From Methanobrevibacter millerae (GTDB lineage Archaea; Methanobacteriota; Methanobacteria; Methanobacteriales; Methanobacteriaceae): a stretch of DNA of 64,000 bases. The position numbers were made by a program, and so were the translations under genes. The notes under the pieces are model-generated. The model worked only from the letters and a program-made list of their open reading frames with translations, was not told the origin of the DNA and did not search any database. Position 1 is the stretch's first letter, and every line of letters starts with the position of its first letter. The stretch is from the NCBI RefSeq assembly GCF_900103415.1, contig NZ_FMXB01000011.1:1-64000 (forward strand), given 5' to 3'. Of the stretch, positions 1,752-51,636 are shown piece after piece.

Positions 1752-2048
1752 GTAATCATTTATATTTTTATAAATATGATATATAAAAATTTAAGCCAAT
1801 TTGAATCTAGCTTTTAAAAGCTTAAATTAACATAATTAATGCATAAAAGTCCTTAATCTTTTTATTGGCCGTTATCATGTTGAATATTTTAATTCACGTC
1901 GATAATGTTCTTTGAAATCCTCTTAATTTATTGTTTTTTCCATTTATCCCACGTTAATTTGACCCATCGGCTGTTTAAACTTGCTTTTCAAAGCCCCTTC
2001 ATATATAAATAAAAAATTTTTAATAAATCAAATAATAAAGTATATCTT
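1752..2048. other. Intergenic region with partial copy of the ATTAAT element
   Basis: No gene is seen. The region separates the divergent M14-like gene and cstA. At about 1953-2015 a stretch reading aacttg-ttt--aaa-cccctt-atatat matches the central part of the repeat elements at 3464 and 4780, but its 3' half is missing. It looks like a decayed copy. The cstA start at 2049 has no clear Shine-Dalgarno sequence; tatatctt lies directly in front. Confidence 0.4.
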
Positions 2049-3443
2049 ATGTACAGTTTTGTCATTTGTTTTTTGGTTTTGGTTGCATCTTATTTTGTTT
2101 ACGGCAAAATCGTTGAAAGGACGGCAGGTGTTGATGAAACCCGCGAAACGCCTGCCTATAGGCTGAAGGATGGGGTTGACTACATACCGATGTCTACAAT
2201 CAAGAATTTCCTGGTTCATTTCCTGAACATTGCGGGCCTTGGGCCAATTTTTGGAGCAATACAGGGAGCGCTTTTTGGTCCGGCTGCATTCCTCTGGATC
2301 GTTTTAGGTACGATTTTCATCGGTGGAGTCCACGATTTCTTCTCTGGATTCATGTCCATGAGAGACGACGGATTCACGATGCCAGACATTGTTTCAAAGT
2401 ATTTGGGTCACAATCTCGAGAAATACGTTGCGGTTCTCATGGTAGTCACCGGAATTCTCGTTTCAGCCACTTTTGCAAGGGGAGCTGCGGATTTGCTTTC
2501 AAACCTGACCAATATTCCAGTACTTATCTGCATAACCGTAATATTCATTTACTTTTTGATTGCAACCGTATTTCCAGTTGACAAAATTATCGGAAGGGCA
2601 TATCCCGTTTTCGGAGTGTTATTGCTGGTTATGGCAATATTAATGACTGGTGGAGTAATAATAAATCCTGCATACAACATTCCCGAATTTACAACTCAGG
2701 GATTGTATCTCACCGACAAAAGCATTTTCCCATATATCTTCGTTACCATTGCATGCGGAGCGATTTCAGGCTTCCACGCATCACAGTCTCCGATTGTTGC
2801 ACGCTGTATTGAAAACGAAAAGGATGCAAGGCCTGTATTTTACGGCGCAATGGTTCTTGAAGGTCTCGTTGCTCTGTGCTGGGCAGCCATTGCAATGGCG
2901 TTCTTCCACGGCCAGCCACAGCTTGCGGCAATTTACAGCGCAGCCCCTGCAGTGGCAGTCAATGAAATGGCAACGGCATTGGTAGGGCCAATTGGTATGG
3001 CCTTAACCATCATTGGAGTTGTTATATGTCCTATTACCTCTGGTGATACCGCACTTCGAAGCGCAAGAATAACGATAGCCGATGAGCTTAAAATCAAGAA
3101 TGAGAAGGTTGTTTCCAGGCTAAAACTCGCTGTTCCTCTGTTTTTAATCGCCTTCGGTTTGACATTTGTTGATTTCAGTCTGATTTGGAGATATTTCGCA
3201 TGGTCTCAGCTGATAGTGGCTACGATAGTACTTTTCTCAGCAACTGCTTATCTGATTAAAGAGAAAAGGCAGTACATCATTACTTTTGTACCTGCACTTG
3301 TGTGTACTTTGATTGCATTTGCGTATATCCTGCAGGCTCCGGAAGGCTTGAGATTGCCTTCAATGATTGCTAACGTAATTTCAGTCATTGCAACGATTGC
3401 CGTTGCTGCGTTCTTCGTAAAGAAATACAAACTGGAAACTTAG
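2049..3443 (+). CDS. cstA: CstA-family transporter (carbon starvation protein A)
   Basis: This 464-residue multi-pass membrane protein matches the CstA family throughout, including AGVDETRETPAYRLKDGVDYIPM, the IAGLGPIFGAIQGALFGP segment and GGVHDFFSGFMSMR. Bacterial members import peptides or pyruvate, so uptake of a small organic nutrient is a fair inference here; the substrate is not certain. It is shorter than the ~700-residue E. coli CstA, as is common for the compact forms in anaerobes. About 12 hydrophobic segments are visible. It stands alone: repeat element E1 starts 21 bp after the stop, and the preceding intergenic region holds a decayed copy of the same element. Confidence 0.88.
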   Translation: MYSFVICFLVLVASYFVYGKIVERTAGVDETRETPAYRLKDGVDYIPMSTIKNFLVHFLNIAGLGPIFGAIQGALFGPAAFLWIVLGTIFIGGVHDFFSGFMSMRDDGFTMPDIVSKYLGHNLEKYVAVLMVVTGILVSATFARGAADLLSNLTNIPVLICITVIFIYFLIATVFPVDKIIGRAYPVFGVLLLVMAILMTGGVIINPAYNIPEFTTQGLYLTDKSIFPYIFVTIACGAISGFHASQSPIVARCIENEKDARPVFYGAMVLEGLVALCWAAIAMAFFHGQPQLAAIYSAAPAVAVNEMATALVGPIGMALTIIGVVICPITSGDTALRSARITIADELKIKNEKVVSRLKLAVPLFLIAFGLTFVDFSLIWRYFAWSQLIVATIVLFSATAYLIKEKRQYIITFVPALVCTLIAFAYILQAPEGLRLPSMIANVISVIATIAVAAFFVKKYKLET

Positions 3444-3463
3444 GCGTTGCAAATCAGATTTTC

Positions 3464-3590
3464 ATTAATGCTGGCCATTATTGGGTGAAAACTTGATTTC
3501 GAAAGCCCTTGGTATATATATCCCTGCTTTTAACAGGTCCTTTGGGTGAAGACCTCGGCATTAATTTGAATTCCTGATTGATTATATTGA
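3464..3590 (+). repeat. ATTAAT element E1 (upstream of ltrA)
   Basis: The core at 3464-3565 begins ATTAATGCTGGCC and ends CCTCGGCATTAAT, so its ends are imperfect inverted repeats. The middle carries a TATA-like block, ggtatatatatccctgc. Similarity to E2 continues past the core (gattgattat-ttgaa) to about 3590. No reading frame is present. It is in the same orientation as E2, E3 and E4. Confidence 0.75.
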
Positions 3591-3659
3591 ATGAAATCAT
3601 TGGCTTTTAGTTTATATTGAAGCAACATTTAATTACACGCTAACTCCATATATCTTAAT

Positions 3660-4778
3660 ATGGAAGTAGTCAAAAAGCCGGTTCAGCTGATTGAATTGTT
3701 TTACGATTTGATATTCGTTTACGCAATTTCACAGTTAACGGGCTTAATTAATGAGCCGATTGGGGGAATAATACCTCCATATAACTTTTTTGCCTATTTA
3801 ATCATCTGTTTTGTGATTCTTCAGGCCTGGCTCTATTTTACCAACTACGTCAATAGATACGGGCAGTGGAAGTCGTACGACTACATTCTGGTCTGCGTCA
3901 ACATGATTGCAGCAATATTCATGGCAAACACCATTTCGCTTGACTGGGCTTCAATGTATTTCGCTTTTGATATTTCAATGCTTATAATGCTTTTAACGGT
4001 CGTAATACTCTATGCAATTCAGGCAAGAAAGGAAGAATCAATGAGCGGAGCCGCAGGCAACTCAATATCCATTCTAAGCGTTGTCTGTACGATTTATGTA
4101 ATCGCAATATTGTGCCACATTTTCAGCTTTGAGGATTACGTTATCTGGATTAACGTGCTGGCTGTTTTAACGGGAGCATTTTTGCCGTTTTTCCTTAAGG
4201 GAAACTTCGACAAGAGCATAATCAATTTTCCCCATCTTGTTGAAAGGTTTGAGCTATTAACAATCATTACCTTTGGAGAAGCCGTTGTCGGCCTTACCCA
4301 TTTCTTTGACGTTACAAACTTCAATTTTGTACCGATTCTAGTGTTTCTGATTGTAATTACCATGTTCGGCTCATATGTGGTTCAGATTCATCGGTTAATG
4401 CAGCACGACAGGATTGAAAGGTCATTAAGGCTGATGTTTAGCCATTATTTTATTATCATCAGCATTAACCTGGTAACGGTTGCGCTGGAGCTGATTCATT
4501 CGGGAGAGGTTAATTACTACTTTGTTAGCGTGTTAATGATTGTTTCATTAATCGTTTTCTACATATCAATTCTGGCAAACAGCCAATATTACCGCAAAAA
4601 CGTTGAATTAACCAGAAAAGATCTCCTGTTAATGATAATCGTTACGGTTTGCGGAACGGCGGTCATTTTCATATTCATATCAAATCTCTACGCTTTTCTA
4701 ATCGGAACCCTGATTATAACGTTTGCCAACTTTGAAATATTGCTTATAAAATATCTTAAGTGCTTGAATGCCGGGTAG
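3660..4778 (+). CDS. LtrA-like (low temperature requirement A) membrane protein
   Basis: A 372-residue polytopic membrane protein with about 10-11 hydrophobic segments. The N-terminal signature ELFYDLIFVYAISQL is characteristic of the LtrA family, as is the later HLVERFELLTIITFGEAVVG block. LtrA was named from Listeria growth in the cold; its molecular function is unknown. The ATG at 3660 has no Shine-Dalgarno sequence, and a TATA-like catatatc lies only about 10 bp ahead, so the start or promoter is uncertain. The gene is alone and is bracketed by direct copies of one repeat element, E1 74 bp upstream of the start and E2 from the base after the stop, suggesting it sits here as a mobile or duplicated cassette. 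Confidence 0.85.
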   Translation: MEVVKKPVQLIELFYDLIFVYAISQLTGLINEPIGGIIPPYNFFAYLIICFVILQAWLYFTNYVNRYGQWKSYDYILVCVNMIAAIFMANTISLDWASMYFAFDISMLIMLLTVVILYAIQARKEESMSGAAGNSISILSVVCTIYVIAILCHIFSFEDYVIWINVLAVLTGAFLPFFLKGNFDKSIINFPHLVERFELLTIITFGEAVVGLTHFFDVTNFNFVPILVFLIVITMFGSYVVQIHRLMQHDRIERSLRLMFSHYFIIISINLVTVALELIHSGEVNYYFVSVLMIVSLIVFYISILANSQYYRKNVELTRKDLLLMIIVTVCGTAVIFIFISNLYAFLIGTLIITFANFEILLIKYLKCLNAG

Positions 4779-4779
4779 A

Positions 4780-4904
4780 ATTAATGCCGGCCATTAACGG
4801 GTGAAAACTTGATTTCGAAAACCCCTTGATATATCCCTGCCTTAAACAAAGCGTGACAGTTAAACCCTCGGCATTAATTTGAATCTTAGATTGATTATGT
4901 TGAA
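4780..4904 (+). repeat. ATTAAT element E2 (downstream of ltrA)
   Basis: The core at 4780-4878 begins ATTAATGCCGGCC and ends CCTCGGCATTAAT, giving a clearer inverted terminal repeat than E1. The middle block aaaacttgatttcgaaa is shared exactly with E1. The similarity again extends about 25 bp beyond the 3' terminus. It starts one base after the ltrA stop, so it is also the 3' flank of that transcript. Confidence 0.75.
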
Positions 4905-4951
4905 AGTTTCACTTTGGATTCAATATGCGTAAATGGAAATGTATTTTAAAT

Positions 4952-4990
4952 GCAAGTTAGCACCTGCACTCGAAAAACTATTTATATTCT
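4952..4990 (+). promoter_or_regulatory. Promoter region of the DUF2207-like gene
   Basis: An AT-rich TATA-like block (aactatttatattc, about 4976-4989) lies some 80 bp before the start at 5065. Just ahead is atgcaagttagcacctgca, whose half-site ATGCAAG also occurs in the inverted repeat at 8719-8738. The start codon has a good ribosome site, aaggtgg, at about 5054-5060. Confidence 0.35.
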
Positions 4991-5064
4991 TGATAATAAA
5001 CTAATTTTAAGTGTGATATAATATCATGCAATATTTACTGATTTAATCAAAAGAAGGTGGAAAT

Positions 5065-5886
5065 ATGTTAGGATTAGGCAATAAATTGGGATTAGGCAGC
5101 AAAGGTCAAATTAATGAAGATATTTGCATTCCGCCTAGTGATGATTCCTATCCTATGATATCCATGTTATATGCGAAAAATGACGAAATCGTAAACGCAT
5201 TATCACTTACAGTACTGGATTTAATTAACAAGGATCAAATCAAATGCGACATTGATTTGGATGATTCATATGAAGTCGGAAAAGAGCTGACTCCTGAAGA
5301 TATGGAAGTAATGAAAAAGATTACCCTTAGAATCGCAAACAAGGGTGAGCTGAAAACTTCCGAATCATTAGCAATCAAGCTGCTCAAGAACATGAACAAG
5401 AACAAGAAGAAATTCAACCTTAAGGCAATGGCAAAGCAGAGCAATATATCTGCAGTAGCCAATAAATTCGAAAATGACTTCGATGACTTCATCAACGCCG
5501 TTGACAAGGAAAACGGATACGACGGCAAGAATTATGGAGACGTTGTTGAAAACGGCAAATTTACTGACAAAGGAAAAGGGCTTAAAAATGAATGGATGAG
5601 CTATCAGAATTATTTGGCCTCGTCCAAGCTTACAGAAGAGCATCCTCCGCAATCCGATGATGAAAATTCAGCCCAAATCATTTACGCAGCATGCTTTGGC
5701 GTGGAAAGGGATGCATTGAAGATAAGGCAGAACAACACTCCTTTAACTGATTTCATTGATAAGGACGGTTATAAACTACTGAACATTATCTTCAACAACG
5801 CATTACGCAATGTAAGCGAAAAAAGAAGAGGAAACGGAATCTTTTATGGAGTAAATGATAAATACAGCATTCCTGGAGGAGCTTAA
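5065..5886 (+). CDS. DUF2207 C-terminal-like soluble protein
   Basis: A 273-residue protein without membrane segments, beginning with a short glycine-rich tract (MLGLGNKLGLG). The order of features (an N-terminal block ending in a winged-helix-like LSLTVLDLINKDQIKCD, a central charged helix region, a W-x2-Y-x2-YL stretch, and AQIIYAACFGVER) resembles the cytoplasmic C-terminal half of DUF2207 membrane proteins, standing here without the usual N-terminal domain and membrane helices. The function is unknown. The gene is alone; a hairpin of 9 bp (TTGAATATT/AATATTCAA, 5902-5926) followed by T-rich DNA likely ends its transcript. The family assignment is inferred from pattern only. Confidence 0.45.
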   Translation: MLGLGNKLGLGSKGQINEDICIPPSDDSYPMISMLYAKNDEIVNALSLTVLDLINKDQIKCDIDLDDSYEVGKELTPEDMEVMKKITLRIANKGELKTSESLAIKLLKNMNKNKKKFNLKAMAKQSNISAVANKFENDFDDFINAVDKENGYDGKNYGDVVENGKFTDKGKGLKNEWMSYQNYLASSKLTEEHPPQSDDENSAQIIYAACFGVERDALKIRQNNTPLTDFIDKDGYKLLNIIFNNALRNVSEKRRGNGIFYGVNDKYSIPGGA

Positions 5887-5901
5887 TCCTCTTTTAAAAT
5901 C

Positions 5902-5942
5902 TTGAATATTAACGCCAAATATTCAAAATCCATTCTTTTTTT
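5902..5942 (+). terminator. Terminator after the DUF2207-like gene
   Basis: A 9-bp inverted repeat TTGAATATT/AATATTCAA with a 7-base loop is followed by cattcttttttt, 16 bp after the stop codon. Confidence 0.5.
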
Positions 5943-6056
5943 AACTGATTTAAGCACCATATCAATTCTCGCCGGATAATTTCCGATTGTTATCTGAATT
6001 CATAGTTGAAATATTAAATAGAATAATGAGAAAATAATAATTAATGGAGGCAGAAC

Positions 6057-7358
6057 ATGGCCAATAGAAGGATGACGATAATCGGAGGTACCAGAGGTCT
6101 GGGAAAATGGATGGCAGAACACCTTAAAAATGATTTCACTATTACCATAACGAGCAGAAACGCTGAAAGCGGACAGAAAATTGCCGATGAATTGGACGTC
6201 GGCTACAGCAATGACAATATTAGGGCAGTAAAAGATGCAGAAATCATCGTATTCAGCGTTCCCATAGAAAACATGGCAGAAACGATTGCTCAGGTGGCTC
6301 CGCACGCTCCCGAAGGATCCCTTTTGATGGACGTTGCAAGCGTCAAGACGGAAGCCGCTGAAGCTTTGGAAAAATACGCACCGGAAAATGCGGAGATATT
6401 GCCGTGCCATCCGATGTTCGGTCCCCGCATTCCAACCCTTGAAAGGCAAATTATCGTGCTTACTCCAATCGAAAACAGGTCAGATAAATGGTTAGCTATC
6501 ATAAAGGAATATTTAACCGAAAAAAACTGTGAAATCGTCATAACGACGCCTGAAGAGCATGACAAGTACATGAGCATCGTTCAGGGATTGACCCATTTCT
6601 CATTCATCAGTCTCGCTTCAACAATCAGAAAGCTTAACATCAACGTTAAAAGGTCAAGGTCATTTTCAAGTCCGGTTTACAGCCTGATGCTTGACATGGT
6701 AAGTAGAATCGTATATCAGAATCCTCACCTTTACTATTCCATTCAAAAAAACAATAAGGAAACCTCAAATGCAAGAAAAGCGCTGATAAAGGAGGGCATT
6801 TACCTGTCAAACCTCATTGAAGAGGGCGATGAGGAGGACTTCGTTAAAAGCATTGTCGAATCGGCCGAGCATCTCGACGAGCGTGAAGAGGCATTAATCA
6901 GATCTGATAGGGCAATAGGAATGCTTGCGCAAAAGGCGAGTGCATTAACTAAATCAATGGGAAAGGAAGTCGGCTTAAGGGAATTGCAATCCGACGAGAT
7001 ACATGTAGGCACAGTAAGGAAAGTCACTTCAAAATGCGTAATTATAGAAAACGGTGAAAAGGAAGAAATTTCCTTGAAGCTCTCCGGCGTGGACCTATTG
7101 TCGAAAAAGGAACTCTTTGAATGGAAAAGGGACAATCTTGAGCTGGAAAAATTCGAATTATCGGTCTCATTTTCCTCAAAATGCGATGAAAAATACCTTT
7201 TAAAAATGTTTAAAAGCATCGAACCAATCATTGACGCTGAAATAGTTGACGTTAATGGTGATAAAACAAGCTATACCTTCAGATACAGGCTGTTCGATAA
7301 AAAGGACAACGATTATGTCGAAAAGTATGTTGAAGGCATCGGTGCAATAATACTTTAA
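6057..7358 (+). CDS. tyrA: Prephenate dehydrogenase (paralogue 1) with C-terminal regulatory domain
   Basis: A 433-residue TyrA-family protein. It oxidises prephenate to 4-hydroxyphenylpyruvate for tyrosine synthesis. The N-terminal Rossmann fold has the archaeal form IIGGTRGLGKW (about residues 8-18), followed by SVPIENMAETI, the HPMFGPR substrate-site segment and the helical TyrA domain with THFSFISLAST. Beyond residue ~300 there is a long extension rather than a typical chorismate mutase, probably a regulatory domain. The ribosome site tggagg sits 8 bases before ATG 6057. A second full-length paralogue on the opposite strand (12621-13913) shares the same architecture. Which one serves tyrosine synthesis cannot be told from sequence. 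Confidence 0.85.
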   Translation: MANRRMTIIGGTRGLGKWMAEHLKNDFTITITSRNAESGQKIADELDVGYSNDNIRAVKDAEIIVFSVPIENMAETIAQVAPHAPEGSLLMDVASVKTEAAEALEKYAPENAEILPCHPMFGPRIPTLERQIIVLTPIENRSDKWLAIIKEYLTEKNCEIVITTPEEHDKYMSIVQGLTHFSFISLASTIRKLNINVKRSRSFSSPVYSLMLDMVSRIVYQNPHLYYSIQKNNKETSNARKALIKEGIYLSNLIEEGDEEDFVKSIVESAEHLDEREEALIRSDRAIGMLAQKASALTKSMGKEVGLRELQSDEIHVGTVRKVTSKCVIIENGEKEEISLKLSGVDLLSKKELFEWKRDNLELEKFELSVSFSSKCDEKYLLKMFKSIEPIIDAEIVDVNGDKTSYTFRYRLFDKKDNDYVEKYVEGIGAIIL

Positions 7359-7396
7359 ATATTTCAATCTAAAATCAGATATAAAAAGTTAAGGTC

Positions 7397-7418
7397 CCGG
7401 CATTAATTCAAATGCCGG
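7397..7418. repeat. Fragment of the ATTAAT element forming a hairpin
   Basis: CCGGCATT/AATGCCGG form an 8-bp stem with a 6-base loop between the convergent ends of tyrA and the acetolactate decarboxylase gene. The sequence ggtcccggcattaattca matches the 3' terminus of elements E3 and E4, so this looks like a leftover element end. It could now serve as a two-way terminator, though no long T-run follows. Confidence 0.5.
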
Positions 7419-7432
7419 TTAATTATTTTCGT

Positions 7433-8236
7433 TTATTTCTCTGCGCCTTTGATTTTACTGGTCATGTCTTCGGTAAAATTCAGGTCTGAGAACTTGTCCG
7501 TCGTTGGAAGAACCATGTTGAATTCATGGATTTCATCGATTTCGGCAGTTCCGTTTGTAATGTTGAGTCCCAATATGTGTCCGCCTTTGTCCTTGGCGTC
7601 ATTGAGGAAATGGAAATGCCATCCTGCCATATTAATGTCTTTCATATGTTCAGGGAAATAGACTGCAACGATTGTTCCGCTTTGGTTGGTGTAATTGAAT
7701 ACCTTCTGGGACGTTTTGGCAACTTCGCTGAACTCCTTGTATGGCTGGTTCTGTTTTTCAACGCTTCTGACGGTTATGTTGTCGGCATAACATTTGATTT
7801 TAACCACATACATGTTGTTTTTGCCGAGCTTTTCGATTTCACCGTTAAGCTTGCTTGTCAAATCGTCAGTGCTGTTGGCTGAAATTCCTCCTAACTCGGC
7901 ATCCTTGTCAAAATAGGTTATGGTTGCAAACGGTATTGTTTCATTGTTAGGCGCAACTTTAACGCTGCCGTCGGCTTTTGCCTGATAAATGACGCCGTCC
8001 AAGATAATCATCTCTCCGTTCACGCCTTCAAATGTTCCGAGCCCCACGTCTCCATTGTATTTCATTTCTCCAACGCTTACAACACCTTCATAGGCTCCCT
8101 TCATGAATGTCTGCATCGTAGAGACCTGATGCATGCTGTCATCATTCTTAATAAATACGTTACCGGCGCTGACCGCTGATATGGCCAGTAAACTAGCCAG
8201 TAATATTGAAATTAATATGATTTTCCTGTTTGTCAA
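7433..8236 (-). CDS. alsD: Alpha-acetolactate decarboxylase, secreted form
   Basis: This enzyme converts acetolactate to acetoin. The 267-residue protein has the family blocks TMQTFMKGAYEG, GLGTFEGVNGEM-ILDG and the metal-site segment GWHFHFLNDAKDKGGHILG with its His residues. Residues 1-24 form a clear signal peptide (basic start, hydrophobic core, AVSAG cleavage region), so the enzyme probably acts outside the membrane, unlike acetolactate synthase, which is cytoplasmic. No acetolactate synthase gene is adjacent. It runs convergently with tyrA. Its upstream region (from 8237) holds a TATA-like block on the minus strand. A secreted enzyme might act on acetolactate released by neighbouring microbes; this is inference. 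Confidence 0.88.
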   Translation of the reverse strand: MTNRKIILISILLASLLAISAVSAGNVFIKNDDSMHQVSTMQTFMKGAYEGVVSVGEMKYNGDVGLGTFEGVNGEMIILDGVIYQAKADGSVKVAPNNETIPFATITYFDKDAELGGISANSTDDLTSKLNGEIEKLGKNNMYVVKIKCYADNITVRSVEKQNQPYKEFSEVAKTSQKVFNYTNQSGTIVAVYFPEHMKDINMAGWHFHFLNDAKDKGGHILGLNITNGTAEIDEIHEFNMVLPTTDKFSDLNFTEDMTSKIKGAEK

Positions 8237-8412
8237 TTTTCTTCCTCCCTTGATTGAAATGTTTGTAGATTAACTTATATTAATTATACCGTTGGATATT
8301 GCGAAGTCTTTCAATCTCCAATCTCACGGATTTTCAGTCAGTTAAACGGCCGCTAAAAAACAGGAAATGATTATGATCTGTTTAAAAAAAGTTGAATGGG
8401 GATAAAAAAAGA

Positions 8413-8447
8413 GTGATGGACTCATAATTGAGTTATCACCTTTTTTT
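8413..8447. terminator. Hairpin with T-run in the 8.2-8.9 kb gap
   Basis: GTGAT/ATCAC and ACTCA/TGAGT form a two-part stem around loop TAAT. Seven T follow on the plus strand, and seven A precede the stem, giving a T-run for minus-strand transcripts too. Nothing obvious is transcribed just upstream on the plus strand. Confidence 0.45.
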
Positions 8448-8505
8448 CGTGTTTTTTATTGACGAATCAACCTATTTTTGTGATTTTGTCTACGGGAGGT
8501 AAACT

Positions 8506-8550
8506 ATGAAGTCATGGTTTAATCCGCCAATGTCGAAACTTGGAGGATGA
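8506..8550 (+). CDS. Possible 14-residue peptide
   Basis: An ATG with a strong ribosome site, GGGAGG, six bases upstream opens a frame encoding MKSWFNPPMSKLGG and then stops. The ribosome site is as good as that of any gene in the window, which is unusual for a chance frame. There is no homology argument, and it could equally be a remnant or part of an untranslated RNA. Confidence 0.25.
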   Translation: MKSWFNPPMSKLGG

Positions 8551-8699
8551 GCGGATCTCGCCATTCTTTAATGATGGCAGAAATCATCTGCATCCTTTAA
8601 CACTAAAATGGATTAATGTTGTGTGTAGTAATTTTTATTTATTTCAATATTTTTCTCGGGAGCGGGAAGTAATTCCCGTTTAATATATATTATAAGCCT

Positions 8700-8738
8700 G
8701 GTATATAAAGATTTTCGCATGCAAGCACTCACTTGCAT
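8700..8738 (+). promoter_or_regulatory. TATA box with overlapping inverted repeat
   Basis: TATA-like ggtatataaag at 8700-8710 is followed at 8719-8738 by ATGCAAG, six bases, then CTTGCAT. The repeat covers the expected transcription start about 25 bp after the TATA box, a typical archaeal repressor position. Confidence 0.4.
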
Positions 8739-8870
8739 CGTAAAATGCAAAAATACTTGATATTTATTCTTTATAATTAAAAATAATTAATTTAAACTAA
8801 AATATTTCAAATCGGACAAATATATTTAAATAATTTCATTCAAATTTATTAACAAAGGTGGGAATTGACA

Positions 8871-9188
8871 ATGGCTTCAAGCAAGGAATATCTTGAATAT
8901 GTGCTCGAGCAGCTCTCTGATTTGGAAGAGATAACATACAGGGCAATGATGGGCGAATACATCATTTACTTCAAAGGAAAGATTATTGGGGGCGTTTATG
9001 ACGACCGTTTTCTCATAAAGCCGGTTAAGGCAGCTCGGGAGATGATGTGTGATGCGACCATGGAACTGCCGTATGAGGGCGCAAAGGAAATGATTCTGGT
9101 TGATAATATCGAAGATAAGGAATTTCTAAAGGAACTGATTGAATCAATGTATGATGAGCTTCCATCTCCAAGAAGAAGGCGCAAATAA
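8871..9188 (+). CDS. TfoX N-terminal domain protein
   Basis: A 105-residue single-domain protein of the TfoX/Sxy N-terminal family: ITYRAMMGEYIIYFKGKIIGGVYDDRFLIKP is the diagnostic core. In Proteobacteria the longer Sxy/TfoX protein activates competence genes together with CRP; short single-domain forms in archaea have no known role. ATG 8871 is chosen over TTG 8865 because ggtggg at about 8855-8860 is correctly spaced only for the ATG. The C-terminus is basic (RRRRK). The gene stands alone, downstream of the long regulatory gap and upstream of the flavodoxin gene. Confidence 0.8.
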   Translation: MASSKEYLEYVLEQLSDLEEITYRAMMGEYIIYFKGKIIGGVYDDRFLIKPVKAAREMMCDATMELPYEGAKEMILVDNIEDKEFLKELIESMYDELPSPRRRRK

Positions 9189-9215
9189 TTTGAAATTATC
9201 CAAATAATATTAATC

Positions 9216-9256
9216 GTTGCAAATGCAATAGTTGTAAATGCAACATTTATATATGA
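9216..9256 (+). promoter_or_regulatory. Tandem MarR-type operator and promoter of flavodoxin-marR
   Basis: GTTGCAAATGCAA (9216-9228) and GTTGTAAATGCAA (9231-9243) are near-identical tandem sites, each an imperfect palindrome of the form TTGCA-NN-TGCAA. They touch the TATA box atttatatatga at 9245-9256. Binding here would block TBP or polymerase. The MarR protein encoded two genes downstream is the obvious candidate. Confidence 0.6.
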
Positions 9257-9277
9257 TGAACTAATAATAGTTAATTC

Positions 9278-9733
9278 ATGAAATCATTAGTAGTATATTA
9301 TTCAAGGTCAAACATAACTAAAAAACTTGCAGAAAACATTGCCGCTAAAACCGGCGCAGACGTGGAAGAAATCGTACCTAAAGTCAATTATCAGGGTAAA
9401 CTGGGATACGCCCGTGGAGGAAAGGATGCAATATCCTCAAAAGTAATCGATTTGGAAAGCTTGAAATACAATCCTGAAGATTATGATGTAGTATACCTCG
9501 GCTGTCCGGTATGGGCTTCAAGGCCGGCAACGCCGTTATATTCATACATGAAAAAGAATGAAGGCAAATTCACTAACGTAAAATTCTTCGTAACTGCCGG
9601 AGGATCAGGATTTGACTCCACTCTTGAACATATGGAAAAGGCATCAGTAAAGCCCCTTAAAACCCTGGCATTAACCACCAAGGAAGTAAAAAAAGACCTC
9701 TATGAAGATAAGCTCTCCTCATTTTTAGAATAG
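9278..9733 (+). CDS. Flavodoxin-family protein
   Basis: A 151-residue flavodoxin: KSLVVYYSRSNITKKLAENIA is the FMN phosphate-binding start (S-x-S-N-x-T-K), followed by YDVVYLGCPVWASRPATP and the FFVTAGGSGFDSTLEHM strand-loop that closes over the flavin. It probably shuttles electrons or acts as a small quinone/flavin reductase. The ATG lies about 27 bp after the TATA centre and has no Shine-Dalgarno sequence, so the message is probably leaderless. The marR gene follows after 5 bp, so both are likely cotranscribed and under the operator at 9216-9243. Confidence 0.88.
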   Translation: MKSLVVYYSRSNITKKLAENIAAKTGADVEEIVPKVNYQGKLGYARGGKDAISSKVIDLESLKYNPEDYDVVYLGCPVWASRPATPLYSYMKKNEGKFTNVKFFVTAGGSGFDSTLEHMEKASVKPLKTLALTTKEVKKDLYEDKLSSFLE

Positions 9734-9738
9734 GTATC

Positions 9739-10200
9739 ATGTCAGTCGAAGAATTAAGGGAAATTGATGCAACGACAATTCCCGTCGGAAAACTCCTTTA
9801 TCTGATTGGAAAAGGCTACATCAACTACGTCAATCACCATATTTCAGAGTACGGTCTCAATTCGACGCAGCTCCACTTGCTCTTTGAAATATCACACGAA
9901 TCCAACATTAACCAGGAAAGGATAGCCTCAAGATACAACCTCAACAAGGGTTCGGTTGCAAGATCCATCAAGAAACTCGAAGACAAGGGGCTGGTTAAAA
10001 GGCAAATCGATGAAAACAACAGAAGGCAGAACAAGCTATCCCTAACCGAAAGCGGCCAGGAATTAATTAACAAGACAATCAAGATTTTCCACGACTGGGA
10101 AGACTCAGTAATCATAGATGACGGATATGTGGAAAAGGAACTCCTGCAAAAGGAATTGAAAGAAATAGCTATTAGAACCATGGAATTGAATTTGCATTAA
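9739..10200 (+). CDS. MarR-family transcriptional regulator 1
   Basis: A 153-residue winged-helix regulator. Residues ~30-100 have the MarR pattern: STQLHLLFEISHESNINQERIASRYNLNKGSVARSIKKLEDKGLVKR, then the wing RQIDENNRRQNKLSLTESG. The N- and C-terminal helices would form the dimer. It is encoded directly after the flavodoxin gene, and two palindromic sites overlap the shared promoter, which suggests autorepression relieved by a small ligand or redox signal. Its stop codon overlaps the first bases of repeat element E3. Confidence 0.9.
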   Translation: MSVEELREIDATTIPVGKLLYLIGKGYINYVNHHISEYGLNSTQLHLLFEISHESNINQERIASRYNLNKGSVARSIKKLEDKGLVKRQIDENNRRQNKLSLTESGQELINKTIKIFHDWEDSVIIDDGYVEKELLQKELKEIAIRTMELNLH

Positions 10201-10380
10201 TTACTGCCATTACCATTTGAAAAATCGATTTCAAAAAGGCTTTGATATATATCCCTGCCTCAAATCAGGCATGGTTGGTGAAAGCCCCGGCATTAATTCA
10301 AAATACAATCAATTAAATTAATGCTTAAAAATTTACTTTTCATTTGATTAACATCAACGTTAATTATTCGCCAGGCAATA
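10196..10380 (+). repeat. ATTAAT element E3 (beside the tannase-like gene)
   Basis: The core at 10196-10297 begins ATTAATTACTGCC and ends CCGGCATTAAT, with the TATA-like tttgatatatatccctgcc in the middle. Near-identity with E4 continues to about 10380 (ttattcgccaggcaat), so this subtype is about 185 bp long. Its first bases overlap the marR stop codon. Confidence 0.8.
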
Positions 10381-10433
10381 ACTATCGGTAAAAAAGAATA
10401 TTAAAAGAGTAAAAAGAAATCAGTATTGATTTC

Positions 10434-12278
10434 TTAATTTAAACAATTGTTTACCCAATTTATAAAGTTTGCAGTTGAATCTCCACTTCTTTCGGCTTGA
10501 GTATGGCCTTGACCCCAAACAGTGGAAAATTCGACATTATCTTTACCGACTTTGCTTAAAACAGCCAAATAAAGATTTATATCAACACATTGTGAAGTAT
10601 CTCCCTGTTCAATGCCTGTATTAATTCTCCAGTATTGGGCAACATCGGATGAACCGGCACCGTCATAATAATCGCATAAGTAATACATTGGATTATACAT
10701 GTTTACGCGCGTTTCCATTGTGTTGTTCTGGGTGTCATTTTTCGCCAAATCCTCGTTGTATTCGCTTGCATAGCTTGGGGAGTAATCGTCATATTTGGAG
10801 TATTTTTCGCTGTTATTGCCTAGAAGTTCGGCTACTGTCTTATCGAAATGGGCTGAATCATTAGCATCAAGGCCGAATAATCCATTTTCTGCTTGTGAAC
10901 GGTTTAAATCGTCAAATGCAGGAACAGATTTTGATGGATTTTTACAATGTTTCACAAAAGCTTCAAGGCTTTTGATTTTGGCAGTATTTGTGCTGGCATC
11001 ATATTCAATCCATGTTTCATTGCCATTCAATGAATTGATATACTCCTGTGCCGTTTGGTAGCTTTCTGAATCACTTGATTGTGATGAGCTGTCTGGTGCT
11101 TCTCCTGTTGGCATGTTTCCTGAGTCTGTTGGTGCTTCTCCTGTTGGCATGTTTCCTGAGTCTGTTGGTGCTTCTCCTGTTGGCATGTTTCCTGAGTCTG
11201 TTGGTGCTTCTCCTGTTGGCATGCCACCCATATTTTCTCCTGAAGATGGGGTGTATGGGAAGGAAGTATCGTTTAGGAAATTATTCAATGATTCTTCAGT
11301 TGTTTTCAATAAATAATCATAATAAGACCCTGAAGTATAAATTCCATTGTCGCTTTTCTCTAGCGTTAATTTGTTTCCATTCGGATTTTTTAAGCCTAAT
11401 TCATTAATGTATCCTGCATATTCGACTGCTAAATCATCACTTAAAGTACTGGTGAATGTATTTGAACCTCTAGCATATTGGCCCATATTCCATTCATATG
11501 CTTCGTCAGCATAATCAAGTGATGTTATAGGACACCAGCACATTGCTCCTGCAATTGCATTTGAAAGTCCGTTCCCATCTTTTCCAACCATCGCTGCACC
11601 AATACTTTCTAAATAAGGATTGTATAATTCACTGTTTCCTGAAGATCCCATTATTGCAGATTGGGCTCCCCCTCCGCTATGGCCAAAGGTAAATATTTTT
11701 TCTGTATTTCCCGGAAGCACATCACCGTTAAATCGGTAATAGGTTACAGCAGATTTTAAATCAGTCACTCCGTCAGGCGCTTCGGCATTGTCTCTTCCTC
11801 TACACCCGGCATCCAGATAGATAAATCCTGCATCAGTATAATCTTTCACTTCCCCTGCATTATAGCTTGTTGGAGCTTTGCATGATGAATAACCTGGCGT
11901 ATTTACCGGCATCACAATCGGTGCTTCGGATGCTGTGTAGTTTCCAACTTTCCCGTCACTTTTTACAGTGCATGAGTATGTTCCATTTGCATTTTTGCTT
12001 GCTTGGAAGTATTTTCCGGGAACATAGATTCCACATGACTCATAGTTAATATCCTCTGGTTCTGAACAGTATACGAGTCCTATTTGATAGTAAATATCGT
12101 TTGTTTCATCGTAACTCCAGTTATTCATGTCTATTGATAATTTTTCGCTTAGCGCTGTTGCATTATATGAGATTCCATTGCCTGTCGGATGGGTATTGCT
12201 GCCTGTAAAAGCAAATATGCTTCCAATGGCTATTGCAAGAATCCCTATGATTATGATGGCTTTATAAATGTCTTTCAT
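10434..12278 (-). CDS. Large secreted tannase/feruloyl-esterase-like alpha/beta hydrolase
   Basis: A 614-residue protein with an N-terminal signal anchor (about residues 6-25). An alpha/beta-hydrolase nucleophile elbow, FGHSGGGAQS, places the likely catalytic Ser at residue 201. AGCRGRDN before it and GQGHTQAER near the C-terminus (His ~592) complete a plausible triad in the order seen in subtype B tannases. A low-complexity insert of exact 12-residue repeats (NMPTGEAPTDSG) separates two halves at about residues 355-400. It likely cleaves ester bonds of plant or microbial polymers or phenolic esters at the cell surface; the substrate is not certain. The gene is alone and bracketed by directly repeated elements E3 and E4. 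Confidence 0.6.
   Translation of the reverse strand: MKDIYKAIIIIGILAIAIGSIFAFTGSNTHPTGNGISYNATALSEKLSIDMNNWSYDETNDIYYQIGLVYCSEPEDINYESCGIYVPGKYFQASKNANGTYSCTVKSDGKVGNYTASEAPIVMPVNTPGYSSCKAPTSYNAGEVKDYTDAGFIYLDAGCRGRDNAEAPDGVTDLKSAVTYYRFNGDVLPGNTEKIFTFGHSGGGAQSAIMGSSGNSELYNPYLESIGAAMVGKDGNGLSNAIAGAMCWCPITSLDYADEAYEWNMGQYARGSNTFTSTLSDDLAVEYAGYINELGLKNPNGNKLTLEKSDNGIYTSGSYYDYLLKTTEESLNNFLNDTSFPYTPSSGENMGGMPTGEAPTDSGNMPTGEAPTDSGNMPTGEAPTDSGNMPTGEAPDSSSQSSDSESYQTAQEYINSLNGNETWIEYDASTNTAKIKSLEAFVKHCKNPSKSVPAFDDLNRSQAENGLFGLDANDSAHFDKTVAELLGNNSEKYSKYDDYSPSYASEYNEDLAKNDTQNNTMETRVNMYNPMYYLCDYYDGAGSSDVAQYWRINTGIEQGDTSQCVDINLYLAVLSKVGKDNVEFSTVWGQGHTQAERSGDSTANFINWVNNCLN
11095..11223 (-). repeat. 36-bp perfect tandem repeat inside the hydrolase gene
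   Basis: Three identical 36-bp units and a 21-bp partial unit (unit start ggtgcttctcctgttggcat on the plus strand) encode repeats of NMPTGEAPTDSG. Exact identity of the units implies recent expansion or homogenisation. The length is a multiple of three, so copy changes keep the frame. Confidence 0.9.
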
Positions 12279-12421
12279 GGTTTCACCTCACTATTATTTC
12301 TATAAATAATGATAAATAAACATTTTTTTAAAAAACGGGGATTGTTGCTTAAGTTAATCTAATTTATACAAAAATAAACATTAATTATGGCTATTGTATG
12401 TAAATCTTATTGATTGGTAGC

Positions 12422-12606
12422 ATTAATTACGGCCATTACCATTTGATAAATCGATTTCAAAAAGGCTTTGATATATATCCCTGCCTCAAATCCGGCATGG
12501 TTGGTGAAAGCCCGGGCATTAATTTAAAATACAATCAATTAAATTAATGCTTAAAAATTTACTTTTAATTTAATTAATGTTAACGTTGATTATTCGGTAG
12601 GCAATG
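12422..12606 (+). repeat. ATTAAT element E4 (far side of the tannase-like gene)
   Basis: The core at 12422-12523 and the extension to about 12606 are nearly identical to E3 in the same orientation. Differences are scattered single bases. With E3 it forms a direct repeat around one gene. Confidence 0.8.
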
Positions 12607-12620
12607 AAATTAAATATAAC

Positions 12621-13913
12621 TTACCTTAAAACTCCGCCGAATCCGGTTAGAATGCTCTTAACATTCTGGATGGCTTCGTTTGAAAGGGCGGTAACCTCGA
12701 ATGTAAGGCTTTTAAAGCCCTCATCAATCTGCGGGCCCTGATAAATGTCGGTTAAAACGACTTCAATTACCTCATCAACCTTTTCCAGGGTTTCGACGAT
12801 GACGTTTGGAATCACGCTTTCGCTGAAAACGCAGCTGATGGACTGCTTTTTCCACTCAATATTGTCCAGCTTCCACTGATAAAGCTCCTCATCGCTTAAT
12901 ACTTCAACATTAGCCACTCTCAGCTTTGTTCCGTTATCTAAAATCGCTGTTTTTCCGTTTACCCTTTCAAGAACTCCGACATGAACCTTGCCGGAATAGA
13001 TGTGTTTCAGGGCAATTTCATGGCCGACTGATTCATTTAAGAGGCTGTATTCATGGCTTAATGCGGTAATCGCCTTGTCACTCATACCTAAAGCATTCTG
13101 AATGTCGCCCATGTTTTTAGTTGCGTTAATTGCTATTTCAACGAATTTTTCATCATCTTCTGAGTCAATGGCATCTCTGAGCTCATCAACAGCTTCGCTG
13201 AAGACTTTTCTGATTTTAGGGCCGTTATTGTTCATTGACTGGATGTAATAGGTAAGGTAAGGATTCTGAGATACGATACGCGCAATCATATCGATCATCA
13301 GATTGTAGATTGGACTTTCGTAGTCTTCGGTTTCGTTGATGTCTACTTTAAGCTTTTCCATCGCTGAAGCGGTTGAAATGAATGAAAAGTGGGTGAGAAC
13401 CTGGACGATGCTCATCATGTAGTCATGATGCTCGGCGGTGGTTTCTATTACCCTCATGTTCTTGCTTTCAAGATAATCATGAACTCTCTTGTACCATTCG
13501 CCCTTTTTGGTCGGCGTCAGGACAATAATCTGGTTGTCGAGCTCCGTTGTCCTCGGACCGAAAACGGGGTGTGTCGGAATGTATTCCACGTTTTCAGGTA
13601 GGCTTTCCTCCATTGCCCTTAACGGCTCTTCCTTGATTGAGGTAACGTCCACCATTACGGAACCCTTTCTCATGAAGGGACCGACTTCGCGGATAACGGA
13701 CACCGTGTTGTTAATCGGCACGGATATCACCAGCATGTCGCTCATGGCGGCCAGTTGGGTGTTCGATTCAACGTAGTCAACGTTCATTTCCTCTGCAACC
13801 TTACGGCCTTTAATGTGGTCCCTTGCACTTATCGCAACATCAAATTCGTCCCTAAAATAGTAAATGAGGGTTTTTCCCAAACCGTCACTTCCCCCTATTA
13901 TTCCAATCTTCAT
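12621..13913 (-). CDS. tyrA: Prephenate dehydrogenase (paralogue 2)
   Basis: A 430-residue TyrA-family protein with the Rossmann start MKIGIIGGSDGLGKT, SVPINNTVSVIREVGP, HPVFGPRTTELDNQI and VLTHFSFISTASAM, plus the same long C-terminal extension as paralogue 1. The start is placed at MKIGIIGG; the 42 codons upstream in frame overlap the divergent pelota promoter and lack family features. It is divergent from pelA with 42 bp between starts. Having two complete copies within 8 kb suggests an old duplication with divergence, for example toward arogenate or a different regulatory ligand; that is inference. Confidence 0.85.
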   Translation of the reverse strand: MKIGIIGGSDGLGKTLIYYFRDEFDVAISARDHIKGRKVAEEMNVDYVESNTQLAAMSDMLVISVPINNTVSVIREVGPFMRKGSVMVDVTSIKEEPLRAMEESLPENVEYIPTHPVFGPRTTELDNQIIVLTPTKKGEWYKRVHDYLESKNMRVIETTAEHHDYMMSIVQVLTHFSFISTASAMEKLKVDINETEDYESPIYNLMIDMIARIVSQNPYLTYYIQSMNNNGPKIRKVFSEAVDELRDAIDSEDDEKFVEIAINATKNMGDIQNALGMSDKAITALSHEYSLLNESVGHEIALKHIYSGKVHVGVLERVNGKTAILDNGTKLRVANVEVLSDEELYQWKLDNIEWKKQSISCVFSESVIPNVIVETLEKVDEVIEVVLTDIYQGPQIDEGFKSLTFEVTALSNEAIQNVKSILTGFGGVLR

Positions 13914-13955
13914 ATTAATAACTTTAATAAACATTACATATATAATATTAATACA

Positions 13956-15017
13956 ATGAAAATCATAAAGCAAGATACAAAAGAAGGAATTATGGAAGTC
14001 GTTCCCGAAACGCTGGACGATTTGTGGCATTTGTCCCATATCGTGGAAGTTACGGACAACGTTTCATCAAAAACAACCCGTCGTATTCAGGACAATACGG
14101 GAGATAAGTTAAGAAGCGACAGGGGTGTTAAAAAGACATTTTATCTGGGAATTGACGTTGAAAGCATTTCCTTTCATTTATTCACGGGCAAACTGAGGCT
14201 GACCGGAGTCATTACGAGAGGCCCTGAGGACCTCATTCCTTTAGGTTCCCACCACACATTGGAAGTGAAGCTGAACACTCCATTAAAGATTAAAAAGGTT
14301 AAATGGCCGAACTGGGCATTGAAAAGACTAAAGCAGGCAATTGACGCTTCCAAAAAATTATCCGCAATCATAGTGGTCATAGAGGACGATACCGCAACAT
14401 TAGGTTTGATGAGACAGTTCGGAATCGAATATTATGGTCCAATCAAGGGAAACATTTCCGGAAAGAGGATTTTGGACAAGAACAGAAACAAGAACATCGT
14501 CAAGTTCTATGAAACGATCGTTGATTCAATAAACAAGTTCGAATCGATTCAAAGCATTATCCTTGCGGGACCGGGCTTTTACAAAAACGATTTCTACGAT
14601 TATCTAAAGGACAAACATAAGGATTTGGCCGCCAAATCAATCATTGAAAATACCGGAACCGGAGGAAGGGTCGGAATTCATGAAGTGCTCAAAAAAGGAA
14701 CGGTTGAAAAGCTTACCGTTGAAAACAGGGTTGCAAGCGAAATGGCAGCCGTTAATAACCTTCTTGAGGAAATCGCCCGGAATTCATCAAAAGTTGCATA
14801 TGGTATTAAGGAGTGCAGCGAAGCCATCAATATTGGGGCCGTTGAAAAACTGCTGATACTTGACAAGATGGTCGCAACCAACAATCTGGGCCAGCAGATG
14901 GACATGGTTGAGAACATGAAGGGGGAAGTCATGGTTATAAGCAGCGAGCATGATGGCGGAAAGCAGCTGGAAAGTTTGGGCGGTATTGCGGCTATTTTAA
15001 GATACAGCCTATCATAG
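13956..15017 (+). CDS. pelA: Pelota, mRNA surveillance/ribosome rescue factor
   Basis: A 353-residue archaeal pelota (Dom34), the eRF1-like partner that enters stalled ribosomes and with ABCE1 (encoded at 51666-53444) splits them. It starts MKIIKQDTKEGIMEVVPETLDDLWHL with the LSm-like N-terminal domain and continues through the central and C-terminal eRF1-like domains (VGIHEVLKKGTVEKLTVE; ending GGIAAILRYSLS). Start 13956 is used because family proteins begin at this point; upstream in-frame codons lie inside the divergent tyrA gene. The catalytic GGQ motif of eRF1 is absent, as expected for pelota. Confidence 0.93.
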   Translation: MKIIKQDTKEGIMEVVPETLDDLWHLSHIVEVTDNVSSKTTRRIQDNTGDKLRSDRGVKKTFYLGIDVESISFHLFTGKLRLTGVITRGPEDLIPLGSHHTLEVKLNTPLKIKKVKWPNWALKRLKQAIDASKKLSAIIVVIEDDTATLGLMRQFGIEYYGPIKGNISGKRILDKNRNKNIVKFYETIVDSINKFESIQSIILAGPGFYKNDFYDYLKDKHKDLAAKSIIENTGTGGRVGIHEVLKKGTVEKLTVENRVASEMAAVNNLLEEIARNSSKVAYGIKECSEAINIGAVEKLLILDKMVATNNLGQQMDMVENMKGEVMVISSEHDGGKQLESLGGIAAILRYSLS

Positions 15018-26983: not shown

Positions 26984-27996
26984 TGGCTCATGTTGCTGAA
27001 TGGAAAAAAGAAGAAGTTTTAGAGCTCAAAGGTCTCATAGACAAATATGATGTCGTTGGTATTGTCGATTTACTCAACATTCCAGCAAAACAGCTTCAGG
27101 AAATGAGAAGAAATCTCAAGGACAAGGCTGTTATCAGAATGTCTAAGAAAAACCTTATTGATTTAGCTCTCGAAGATTGTAATGCTAGCAAAAACAACAT
27201 TGTTGATTTGTCTGGACATATGGACGGTCAAGTTGCAATTATCGCAACCGAAATGAATCCGTTCAAGTTATACAAAATCCTAGAAGATAGTAAGACCTCT
27301 GCTCCTGCTAAGCCAGGAACTATCGCTCCGGAAGATATTGTAGTACCTGCCGGTGATACAGGATTCGAACCTGGTCCGTTTTTAGGTGAATTGCAGCAAG
27401 TTGGAATTCCTGCAAAGATCGATAAAGGAAAAATTGTTGTTCAAAAAGATACTGTTGTTGTCGAAGCAGGCGAAGCAGTACCTAAAGATGTTGCAGCAAC
27501 CTTATCAAGATTGGATATTAATCCAATGGAAGTGGGAATTGATTTAAAAGCAGTATATGAAGATGAAGCAGTTTATACTTCAGACTTACTTGCAATCGAT
27601 GAAGAACAAACAATGGCTGACTTACAAGGCGCAATCAGAAGCGCATTTAACTTGTCTATTAACGCAGCTATACCTACTGATGAAACTATTTCCAGCATTA
27701 TTACTCTAGCTTACACCAGAGCAATTAATGTCGGTGTAGAAGCAGCAATATTAACTTCAGAAACTTCAGGACCAATTATCGGACTCGCACAAGCTAAGAT
27801 GTTAGCTATCGCATCAGCTGTCGCTGACAAAGCAGGTGCTATTGACGATGAATTAGCTGAAAAACTATCAAACGTTGCTGTTGCAGCAGCTCCAGTAGTT
27901 GAAGAAGTTGAAGAAGAGGAAGTAGAAGAAGAGGAAGAAGAGGAAGAAGTATCCGAAGAAACAGCAGCAGCTGGTTTAGGAGCTCTCTTTGGTTAA
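26983..27996 (+). CDS. rpl10: Ribosomal protein L10 / P0 (uL10)
   Basis: A 337-residue archaeal P0-type protein. The N-terminal rRNA-binding domain is [24 protein letters not shown] to [11 protein letters not shown], the inserted domain is [23 protein letters not shown], and long helices bind L12 dimers. It ends with an acidic, Glu-rich stretch and the shared stalk tail [10 protein letters not shown], which recruits translation factors. It is part of the L1-L10-L12 operon. Confidence 0.97.
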
Positions 27997-28056
27997 AATT
28001 AAATTTAAAATTTTTTGATTTAAACATTATAATTTAAATAAACTAATGGTGATAAC

Positions 28057-28365
28057 ATGGAATATATATATGCGGCAATGATTTTGCACAGTGCAGAAAA
28101 AGATATTAACGAAGAAAATGTTAAAAGTATTATTGAAGCAGCAGGAATCGAAGCAGACGATGCTAGAATCAAAGCTTTAATCGCAGCTTTAGAAGATGTT
28201 GACATCGACGAAGCTATGGAAACTACTGCTATGGCAGCAGCAGCTCCTGCAGCAGCAGCTCCAGCAGCAGCTGAAGCTGTCGAAGAGGAAGAAGAAGAGG
28301 AAGAAGAGGAAGAAGAAGTTACCGAAGAAGCAGCAGCAGCTGGTTTAGGTGCTTTATTCGGATAG
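28057..28365 (+). CDS. rpl12: Ribosomal protein L12 / P1 (stalk)
   Basis: A 102-residue stalk protein: the helical dimerisation domain [30 protein letters not shown], an Ala-rich hinge, a run of glutamates, and the C-terminal [11 protein letters not shown] identical in kind to that of L10. Multiple copies bind L10 and capture elongation factors. It ends the operon, with its stop inside the terminator stem. Confidence 0.97.
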
Positions 28366-28402
28366 ATTTTTTTAAATCTATCACCTTTATTTCTTTTTTT
28401 TA
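28361..28402 (+). terminator. Terminator of the ribosomal operon
   Basis: GATAGATTT/AAATCTATC form a 9-bp stem with loop TTTT, followed by acctttatttctttttttt. The stem overlaps the rpl12 stop codon. Confidence 0.75.
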
Positions 28403-49690: not shown

Positions 49691-50068
49691 ATGGATGAAA
49701 AAATTGCATTGGTGTCATGCAGTGGATTAAGTCCGCTGGGATTGGTTGTAAGGGCAGCTACAGTTGAACTAGCCTTGGATAATGAAAACATTGTTGCGGC
49801 ATGCATTACTGAATATTCCGCACAGCCCAACAACTGTTCACCGATATTGGATGATGCAAAGATAGTGTCAATCACGGGATGCAGCGATGATTGCGTTTCA
49901 GTGATTCTCAAAGAGAAGGATATTGAGGTTATAAAAAATATTGATGCTGAAACGTTGGTTAAGGCATATGACTTGAATCCTAACGATTCAATAAGGCTTG
50001 ATGACGACGGAGAAGAAGCCGTTAAAGTATTGAAAAGGTTCATATTGAGCGAATTGGAATCCCTTTAG
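49691..50068 (+). CDS. DGC-domain (putative zinc-binding) protein
   Basis: A 125-residue protein starting EKIALVSCSGLSPLGLVVRAATVELA, with further Cys in AACITEYSAQPNNCSPIL and SITGCSDDCVSVIL. The spacing fits the DGC/putative zinc-binding family (conserved Cys, N-terminal C-x-G). Its ATG follows the upstream stop without a gap. It probably binds a metal or Fe-S and serves the same pathway as the two genes before it. Its end overlaps the convergent AAA ATPase by 4 bp. Confidence 0.65.
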   Translation: MDEKIALVSCSGLSPLGLVVRAATVELALDNENIVAACITEYSAQPNNCSPILDDAKIVSITGCSDDCVSVILKEKDIEVIKNIDAETLVKAYDLNPNDSIRLDDDGEEAVKVLKRFILSELESL

Positions 50069-51327: not shown

Positions 51328-51353
51328 GTTTTCATTCCCATTTTTTTATAAAT

Positions 51354-51636
51354 TTATTTTTATAAGCATATAAATTTTGATTTTTTTCTAGTTATTATTC
51401 TTATATAAATATAGATTTTTAAATTATATAAATTTTTATTTTTATAAACATATGAATTTTGATTTCTTTAAATTTTTTATTTATACTAAAATATTAATTT
51501 AATATATTTCAAATTTTTTATTCCTATAGGAATATAAATTTCATGATTTTCAAATTCTTTATTCCTATAGAAATATTAATTTCATATTTTTCTAAATTGA
51601 TATTCCTACACGAATATAAATTTCATAAAATAATGG
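51354..51636 (-). repeat. AT-rich 41-43 bp degenerate tandem repeat upstream of the AAA ATPase
   Basis: About seven units share the pattern tttattcctataggaatat followed by aaatttcat and an aaatt-rich spacer. Unit starts are near 51354, 51393, 51432, 51475, 51515, 51557 and 51600. Units nearest abcE1 are best conserved and hold the palindrome ATTCCTATAGGAAT; units near the ATPase start are more decayed. On the minus strand each unit carries a TATA-like aaatttatatt, so the array is in promoter position for the ATPase gene. Confidence 0.75.

Follow-up and report, generated by a model that had tools for sequence, protein, structure and literature searches.

A dispersed dyad-symmetric DNA element at the borders of accessory-gene cassettes in Methanobrevibacter and tailed proviruses

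Integron attC sites are recognised via a folded single strand and vary in sequence, and the dif modules of Acinetobacter plasmids carry 28-bp XerC/XerD sites. Here we describe E, a non-coding repeat of about 100-187 bp, four full copies of which punctuate the first 12.6 kb of the window analysed (64,000 bp of Methanobrevibacter millerae, positions 1 to 64,000 of NZ_FMXB01000011.1; contig C11 of a 2.72-Mb genome in 48 contigs). E copies in direct orientation bracket accessory genes, the cargo between E copies is replaced, and synteny breaks at E. With a probability of roughly 55%, we interpret E as a recombination joint, made of double-stranded DNA, at which Methanobrevibacter and its tailed proviruses exchange accessory-gene cassettes. 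The arrangement resembles integron cassettes and Acinetobacter dif modules (PMC9668308, PMC6449649), but E lacks defining features of each.

With regard to integrons, E resembles attC, including that of archaeal integrons (PMC9668308), in being a dyad site of about 100 bp with outer AAC...GTT boxes, in adjoining gene ends in a single orientation and in its interchangeable cargo. In contrast to attC, the sequence of E is conserved and shows no covariation, rather than forming a foldable single-strand structure of variable sequence. Neither an IntI nor an attI was identified; several E breakpoints fall at columns 176-178 of the family profile and others at the centre and elsewhere, so that they are not confined to the GTT box. 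The dif (pdif) modules (PMC6449649, PMC13141974) are likewise discrete gene modules bounded by sites. E differs from dif in its length of 104-187 bp, its sequence, its two dyad blocks and its fixed long spacing, and does not have the form of a 28-bp XerC/XerD site. It is also found mainly in archaeal proviruses and host chromosomes, nearly always in direct orientation, with no recombinase assigned.

The family profile comprises 187 columns. Columns 82-185 form its core, a 104-bp dyad with its centre at GATATATATG and its ends at CATTAACG and GTTAATG; the spacers of 37 and 43 bases hardly vary in length (CATTAACG-37-GATATATAT-43-GTTAATG). The left extension is a second dyad sharing the CATTAAC box (self-inverse match, E-value 5e-8), and a T-rich run lies close to the left end of the element. 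No open reading frame (ORF) of at least 100 aa was found within the copies. The "TATA-like" middle reported in a preliminary description of the window is present, but it corresponds to the centre of the 104-bp dyad. The same description considered a mobile non-coding RNA unit. This identity was rejected: E has no match in Rfam, RNAalifold returned 0 consensus pairs, and antiparallel covariation among 139 non-redundant copies was not above the parallel control. Given that the sequence symmetry is conserved without a fold or covariation, E acts, if at all, as duplex DNA, and the conserved dyads are probably protein-binding sites.

Several comparisons point to exchange of cargo at E. A provirus slot with the order int-E-cargo-E-164aa is present in three genomes (G048, G058 and G024), whose proviruses are 96-99% identical outside both E copies (integrase gene to left E, and right E onward). 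The slot contents are unrelated or nearly absent: a UzuA gene in one case, two unrelated ORFs in another and 163 bp in the third. The same outer flanks enclose one E in one locus and E-cargo-E in another in the comparisons of L130 with L230 (3.2 kb of cargo) and of L091 with L076 (1.2 kb). When two copies share only the left flank, the left half of E is 82% identical and the right half 69%; when only the right flank is shared, these values are 67% and 76%, against a background of 56% and 62%. Pairs with both flanks in common reach 94% and 96% in the two halves, so that rapid evolution of E is not a sufficient explanation. Right-shared and left-shared disjoint pairs differ (Mann-Whitney p=0.002-0.016, according to the flank threshold), which suggests, more weakly and at group level, that a flank and the part of E next to it tend to move together. 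In two provirus cases (L153 versus L081/L088), similarity switches at the E centre.

In the window, E4 abuts a conserved backbone gene (12621-14039) whose right-hand neighbourhood is kept in relatives; there, a different gene adjoins its homologue, and no gene of the E1-E4 stretch is found at that locus. An orthologous empty site beside E4 was discarded as a candidate, the relatives being too divergent between genes and having another gene there. For three dispersed copies in the same genome, the flanking gene pair is never adjacent in those of twelve relatives in which both genes could be placed. In five relatives, gene order is largely preserved across a 20-kb control stretch of the window. 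Given that synteny breaks at E and the control stretch is largely colinear, the region from 1.95 to 12.6 kb looks like an accessory island with an E or half E every one to four genes.

Several observations weigh against a recombination joint. Maximum-likelihood breakpoints are spread over the centre (columns ~127-147), the right end (~176-178) and columns ~9-22, ~60-112 and ~154-166. A single crossover point at the centre was not retained despite the two clean cases; because breakpoints also occur at the right end and elsewhere, our claim extends to a recombination joint but not to a proven crossover site. In both L130/L230 and L091/L076 the single copy is similar to the left-hand copy of the pair along its whole length, and a break at the right end is therefore favoured. 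Disjoint right-shared pairs alone are not significant at the 80-85% thresholds, a locus lacking E altogether was not found, and the fixed spacing also fits a regulatory site. Furthermore, no recombinase is tied to E, and the tyrosine recombinase family of the proviruses is absent from the genome of the window.

The protein in question, a 377-aa member of the phage integrase family, adjoins E in several proviruses. Its candidacy as the sole agent is weakened by its absence from the genome of the window, which has 10-26 E copies, and by its presence in genomes without E. Given that this genome does not encode that family, either its E copies are relics, or they are acted on by homologous recombination or by a different enzyme. 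In seven genomes, a winged-helix gene subfamily (91-95 aa, matches of at least 57% identity, and a truncated match of 47% identity in the genome of the window) adjoins E directly on its left (loci in Table 1), and its close members adjoin E in every genome where they were found. We regard the subfamily as a candidate E-binding regulator. Winged-helix genes as such do not track E, as the broad family is present in 59 of the 60 Methanobrevibacter genomes and only the subfamily is E-adjacent.

If E is a recombination joint, recombination between two direct copies would excise, insert or swap the DNA between them, and the recombining copies could be located on a provirus, a chromosome or an incoming DNA circle. 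The exchange may be site-specific or may be ordinary recombination at short homology. The dyads would bind a protein, proviruses would carry cassettes between hosts, and the first 12.6 kb of the window would represent a chromosomal, partly decayed cassette island ending at E4. A more specific proposal, which we put forward only tentatively and consider doubtful, is that methanogen viruses and their hosts have a cassette-recombination system of their own, different from integrons and Xer modules, and that E is its dedicated site. A specific enzyme would then act in the region of the TATATATA centre, or else of the GTTAATG end, assembling and shuffling antiviral-defence and lysogenic-conversion genes. 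If such a dedicated recombinase is found, it would define a new archaeal cassette system and possibly provide an engineering tool for Methanobrevibacter, where genetic tools are scarce.

Among the 159 copies whose flanks allowed context counts, 153 have their centre outside ORFs. The copies favour gene 3' ends, the right end lying at most 30 bp from a facing stop codon in 50 cases. Adjacent copies less than 8 kb apart are on the same strand in 31 of 32 pairs (direct repeats) and on opposite strands in 1, a count which overstates the independent evidence, as some pairs share descent. Many E clusters are part of tailed proviruses and have terminase and HK97-type capsid genes as neighbours. Accessory genes, from one to a few at a time, are enclosed between direct copies. 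Many cargo genes are antiviral defences, including a MutH-type restriction enzyme with a C5 methylase (type II restriction-modification), GmrSD/HEC-06 and UzuA (GIY-YIG), together with the PADLOC candidates PDC-S18 and PDC-S01. Other cargo comprises pseudomurein endoisopeptidase, adhesins, GNAT, MFS, flavodoxin and TrmB regulators, and the cargo as a whole is typical of accessory and defence DNA. E provides a sequence handle on accessory-gene exchange by gut methanogens and their viruses: a search restricted to the DNA that direct copies enclose is enriched in defence cargo, and also in pseudomurein endoisopeptidases, which are of interest for methane control. Tandem E copies without cargo, two or three of them 14-20 bp apart, were also seen next to virus genes (L158 9599-10191, L166 828-1421 and L179 4025-4415); these could be arrays emptied of cargo.

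The family extends well beyond the window. Blastn with E3 detected six copies in the same genome and matched 24 of the 60 Methanobrevibacter genomes at an E-value <=0.001, this genome included. A sequence-only model detected the element in 53 of the 60, with up to ~46 copies in one genome and, at an E-value <=0.01, 26 in the genome of the window. Some genomes of the genus do not have the element (e.g. G034 and G011). When one genome per species (GTDB r220) was scanned for the pattern, 23 stretches were returned, 22 of them from Methanobrevibacter. The remaining one is a genuine copy (L315 1415-1593) on a 3.9-kb contig labelled Erysipelotrichaceae in the rumen metagenome-assembled genome (MAG) RUG13941, probably a misbinned Methanobrevibacter contig. 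The best match in 13 genomes of other families from the same order and class and in two more distant archaea reached an E-value of only 0.003. The preliminary description had named an absence of further copies as a refuting condition; such copies exist, and the family is dispersed, non-coding and widespread among other Methanobrevibacter. In the complete genome G029, two E clusters adjoin integrase genes. Four E copies are present in vir323, a public virus (BK063679) with a Methanobacteriales host. IMG/VR gave 21 pattern matches but one true record, with element scores equal to those of vir323, which it probably is. The family is apparently undescribed: no description of the element was found in the open-access literature, a coverage that leaves out most subscription papers. 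Contigs end near an E copy in many drafts (L229, L240, L252, L264, L276 and L280), as if the repeat breaks assemblies, and E-bounded cargo is probably undercounted in MAGs.

Like BOX, RUP, ERIC and other repeats resembling miniature transposable elements (MITEs) (PMC3049150, PMC10969869), E is dispersed, short, non-coding, intergenic, modular and dyad-symmetric, and it shares with MITEs the terminal inverted repeats (core dyad, CATTAAC/GTTAATG ends) and the lack of an ORF. A non-autonomous element of the MITE or BOX/ERIC kind could have spread by transposition into gene 3' ends, which would agree with the dyad ends, the high copy numbers and the intergenic location with a preference for convergent gene ends. 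The link to cargo would then be secondary, as accessory regions tolerate insertions and dispersed repeats recombine later. We nevertheless consider transposition unlikely, as neither a linked transposase nor an empty site was seen, neighbouring copies are almost all direct and systematically bracket exchangeable cargo, the internal spacing is fixed, and the element is conserved across divergent hosts. A MITE with target-site duplication was rejected, since flanking direct repeats were not above shuffled pairing. The miniature transposable element of the preliminary description is therefore not supported as a classical MITE, and no site wholly without the element was found, the flanks of the copies in the genome of the window not being adjacent in relatives.

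The stoperators of cluster A mycobacteriophages are 13-bp repressor sites, found in one orientation in the short intergenic gaps of temperate virus genomes. E is likewise repeated in one orientation in short intergenic gaps, but it is much longer, occurs on chromosomes too, and is linked to variation in cargo. An operator or architectural protein-binding site, for instance for a viral winged-helix repressor, which silences or insulates accessory genes, would account for the fixed dyads and spacing, for the position between transcription units and for the winged-helix subfamily just left of E. However, E orientation does not follow that of the genes, most copies have no winged-helix neighbour, and genomes that lack E also have related winged-helix genes. 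As such a site also leaves the exchange of cargo at E unexplained, we regard it as rather improbable. A non-coding RNA or a transcription terminator could explain why E lies at the 3' ends of genes and has a T-rich run close to its left end, yet it appears very improbable in view of the Rfam, folding and covariation results and the strong symmetry of the duplex sequence.

In the window itself, the profile search recovered the four copies of the preliminary description, E1-E4, at their original positions and in one shared orientation (Table 1). They match the family profile with E-values of 2e-20 to 1e-36, and a profile built from 137 copies of other genomes only also recovered all four (3e-12 to 1e-29), with zero matches in 30 simulated windows (1.92 Mb) of the window's dinucleotide content. 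No full copy is present in the remaining 50 kb, as had been stated, but two half copies had been overlooked. Both are broken near the central TATATATA, and the left-half fragment includes part of the extension. The two subtypes proposed earlier are real, since E3 and E4 are 93% identical across 184 bp and E1 and E2 79% across 125 bp; a degenerate form of the 80-bp extension is retained in E1 as well. The window copies end in ATTAATGCCGG/CCGGCATTAAT, whereas the family consensus has CATTAACG/GTTAATG, and their ATTAAT ends represent a host subfamily. With the copies and the left-half fragment marked by slashes, the order of the island is CstA / LtrA / DUF2207_C, prephenate dehydrogenase-like / AldC, TfoX-N, flavodoxin, MarR / BD-FAE.

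Table 1 Positions of E copies and genes in the window, and of winged-helix subfamily genes in other sequences
Feature	Position	Strand	Remarks
Right-half fragment of E	1951-2007	-	columns 130-187, from dyad centre; upstream of CstA
CstA-family gene	2049-3443	+	cargo between right-half fragment and E1; Pfam PF02554
E1	3463-3634	-	core and degenerate extension; right end 20 bp past CstA stop codon
LtrA-family gene	3660-4778	+	cargo, sole gene between E1 and E2; Pfam PF06772
E2	4777-4919	-	core and degenerate extension; starts at LtrA gene stop codon
DUF2207_C protein	5065-5886	+	cargo between E2 and left-half fragment
Prephenate-dehydrogenase-like paralogue	6057-7358	+	between E2 and left-half fragment
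Left-half fragment of E	7359-7425	-	columns 66-132, up to dyad centre; between two convergent genes
Alpha-acetolactate decarboxylase (AldC)	7433-8236	-	between left-half fragment and E3
TfoX-N domain protein	8865-9188	+	between left-half fragment and E3
Flavodoxin (9278-9733) and MarR regulator (9739-10200)	9278-10200	+	end at E3
E3	10193-10378	-	full-length; right end overlaps MarR gene stop codon
BD-FAE-type hydrolase	10434-12278	-	cargo, sole gene between E3 and E4
E4	12418-12604	-	full-length (columns 3-189 of the profile); 17 bp separate its left end from conserved chromosomal gene starting at 12621
Backbone gene, prephenate-dehydrogenase-like	12621-14039	-	adjoins E4; synteny with relatives stops here
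Winged-helix subfamily gene	L152 7180-7461		just left of E
Winged-helix subfamily gene	L154 254-535		just left of E
Winged-helix subfamily gene	L157 3520-3795		just left of E
Winged-helix subfamily gene	G037:C24:310-579		just left of E
Winged-helix subfamily gene	G016:C24:32072-32338		just left of E
Winged-helix subfamily gene	G039:C24:218806-219000		just left of E

The two prephenate-dehydrogenase-like paralogues of the window flank part of the stretch punctuated by E; they are ~36-38% identical, and only the second is in conserved synteny. The BD-FAE-type hydrolase gene contains perfect 36-bp coding repeats (GEAPTDSGNMPT units) at 11094-11223, a possible length-variable linker. Outside the island, a 123-nt direct repeat, 80% identical and with its copies 369 bp apart, lies at 27878-28378, partly within coding sequence. 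An AT-rich tandem array of approximately seven 41-bp units occupies 51342-51628, in the intergenic region between the genes at 50065-51327 and 51666-53444.

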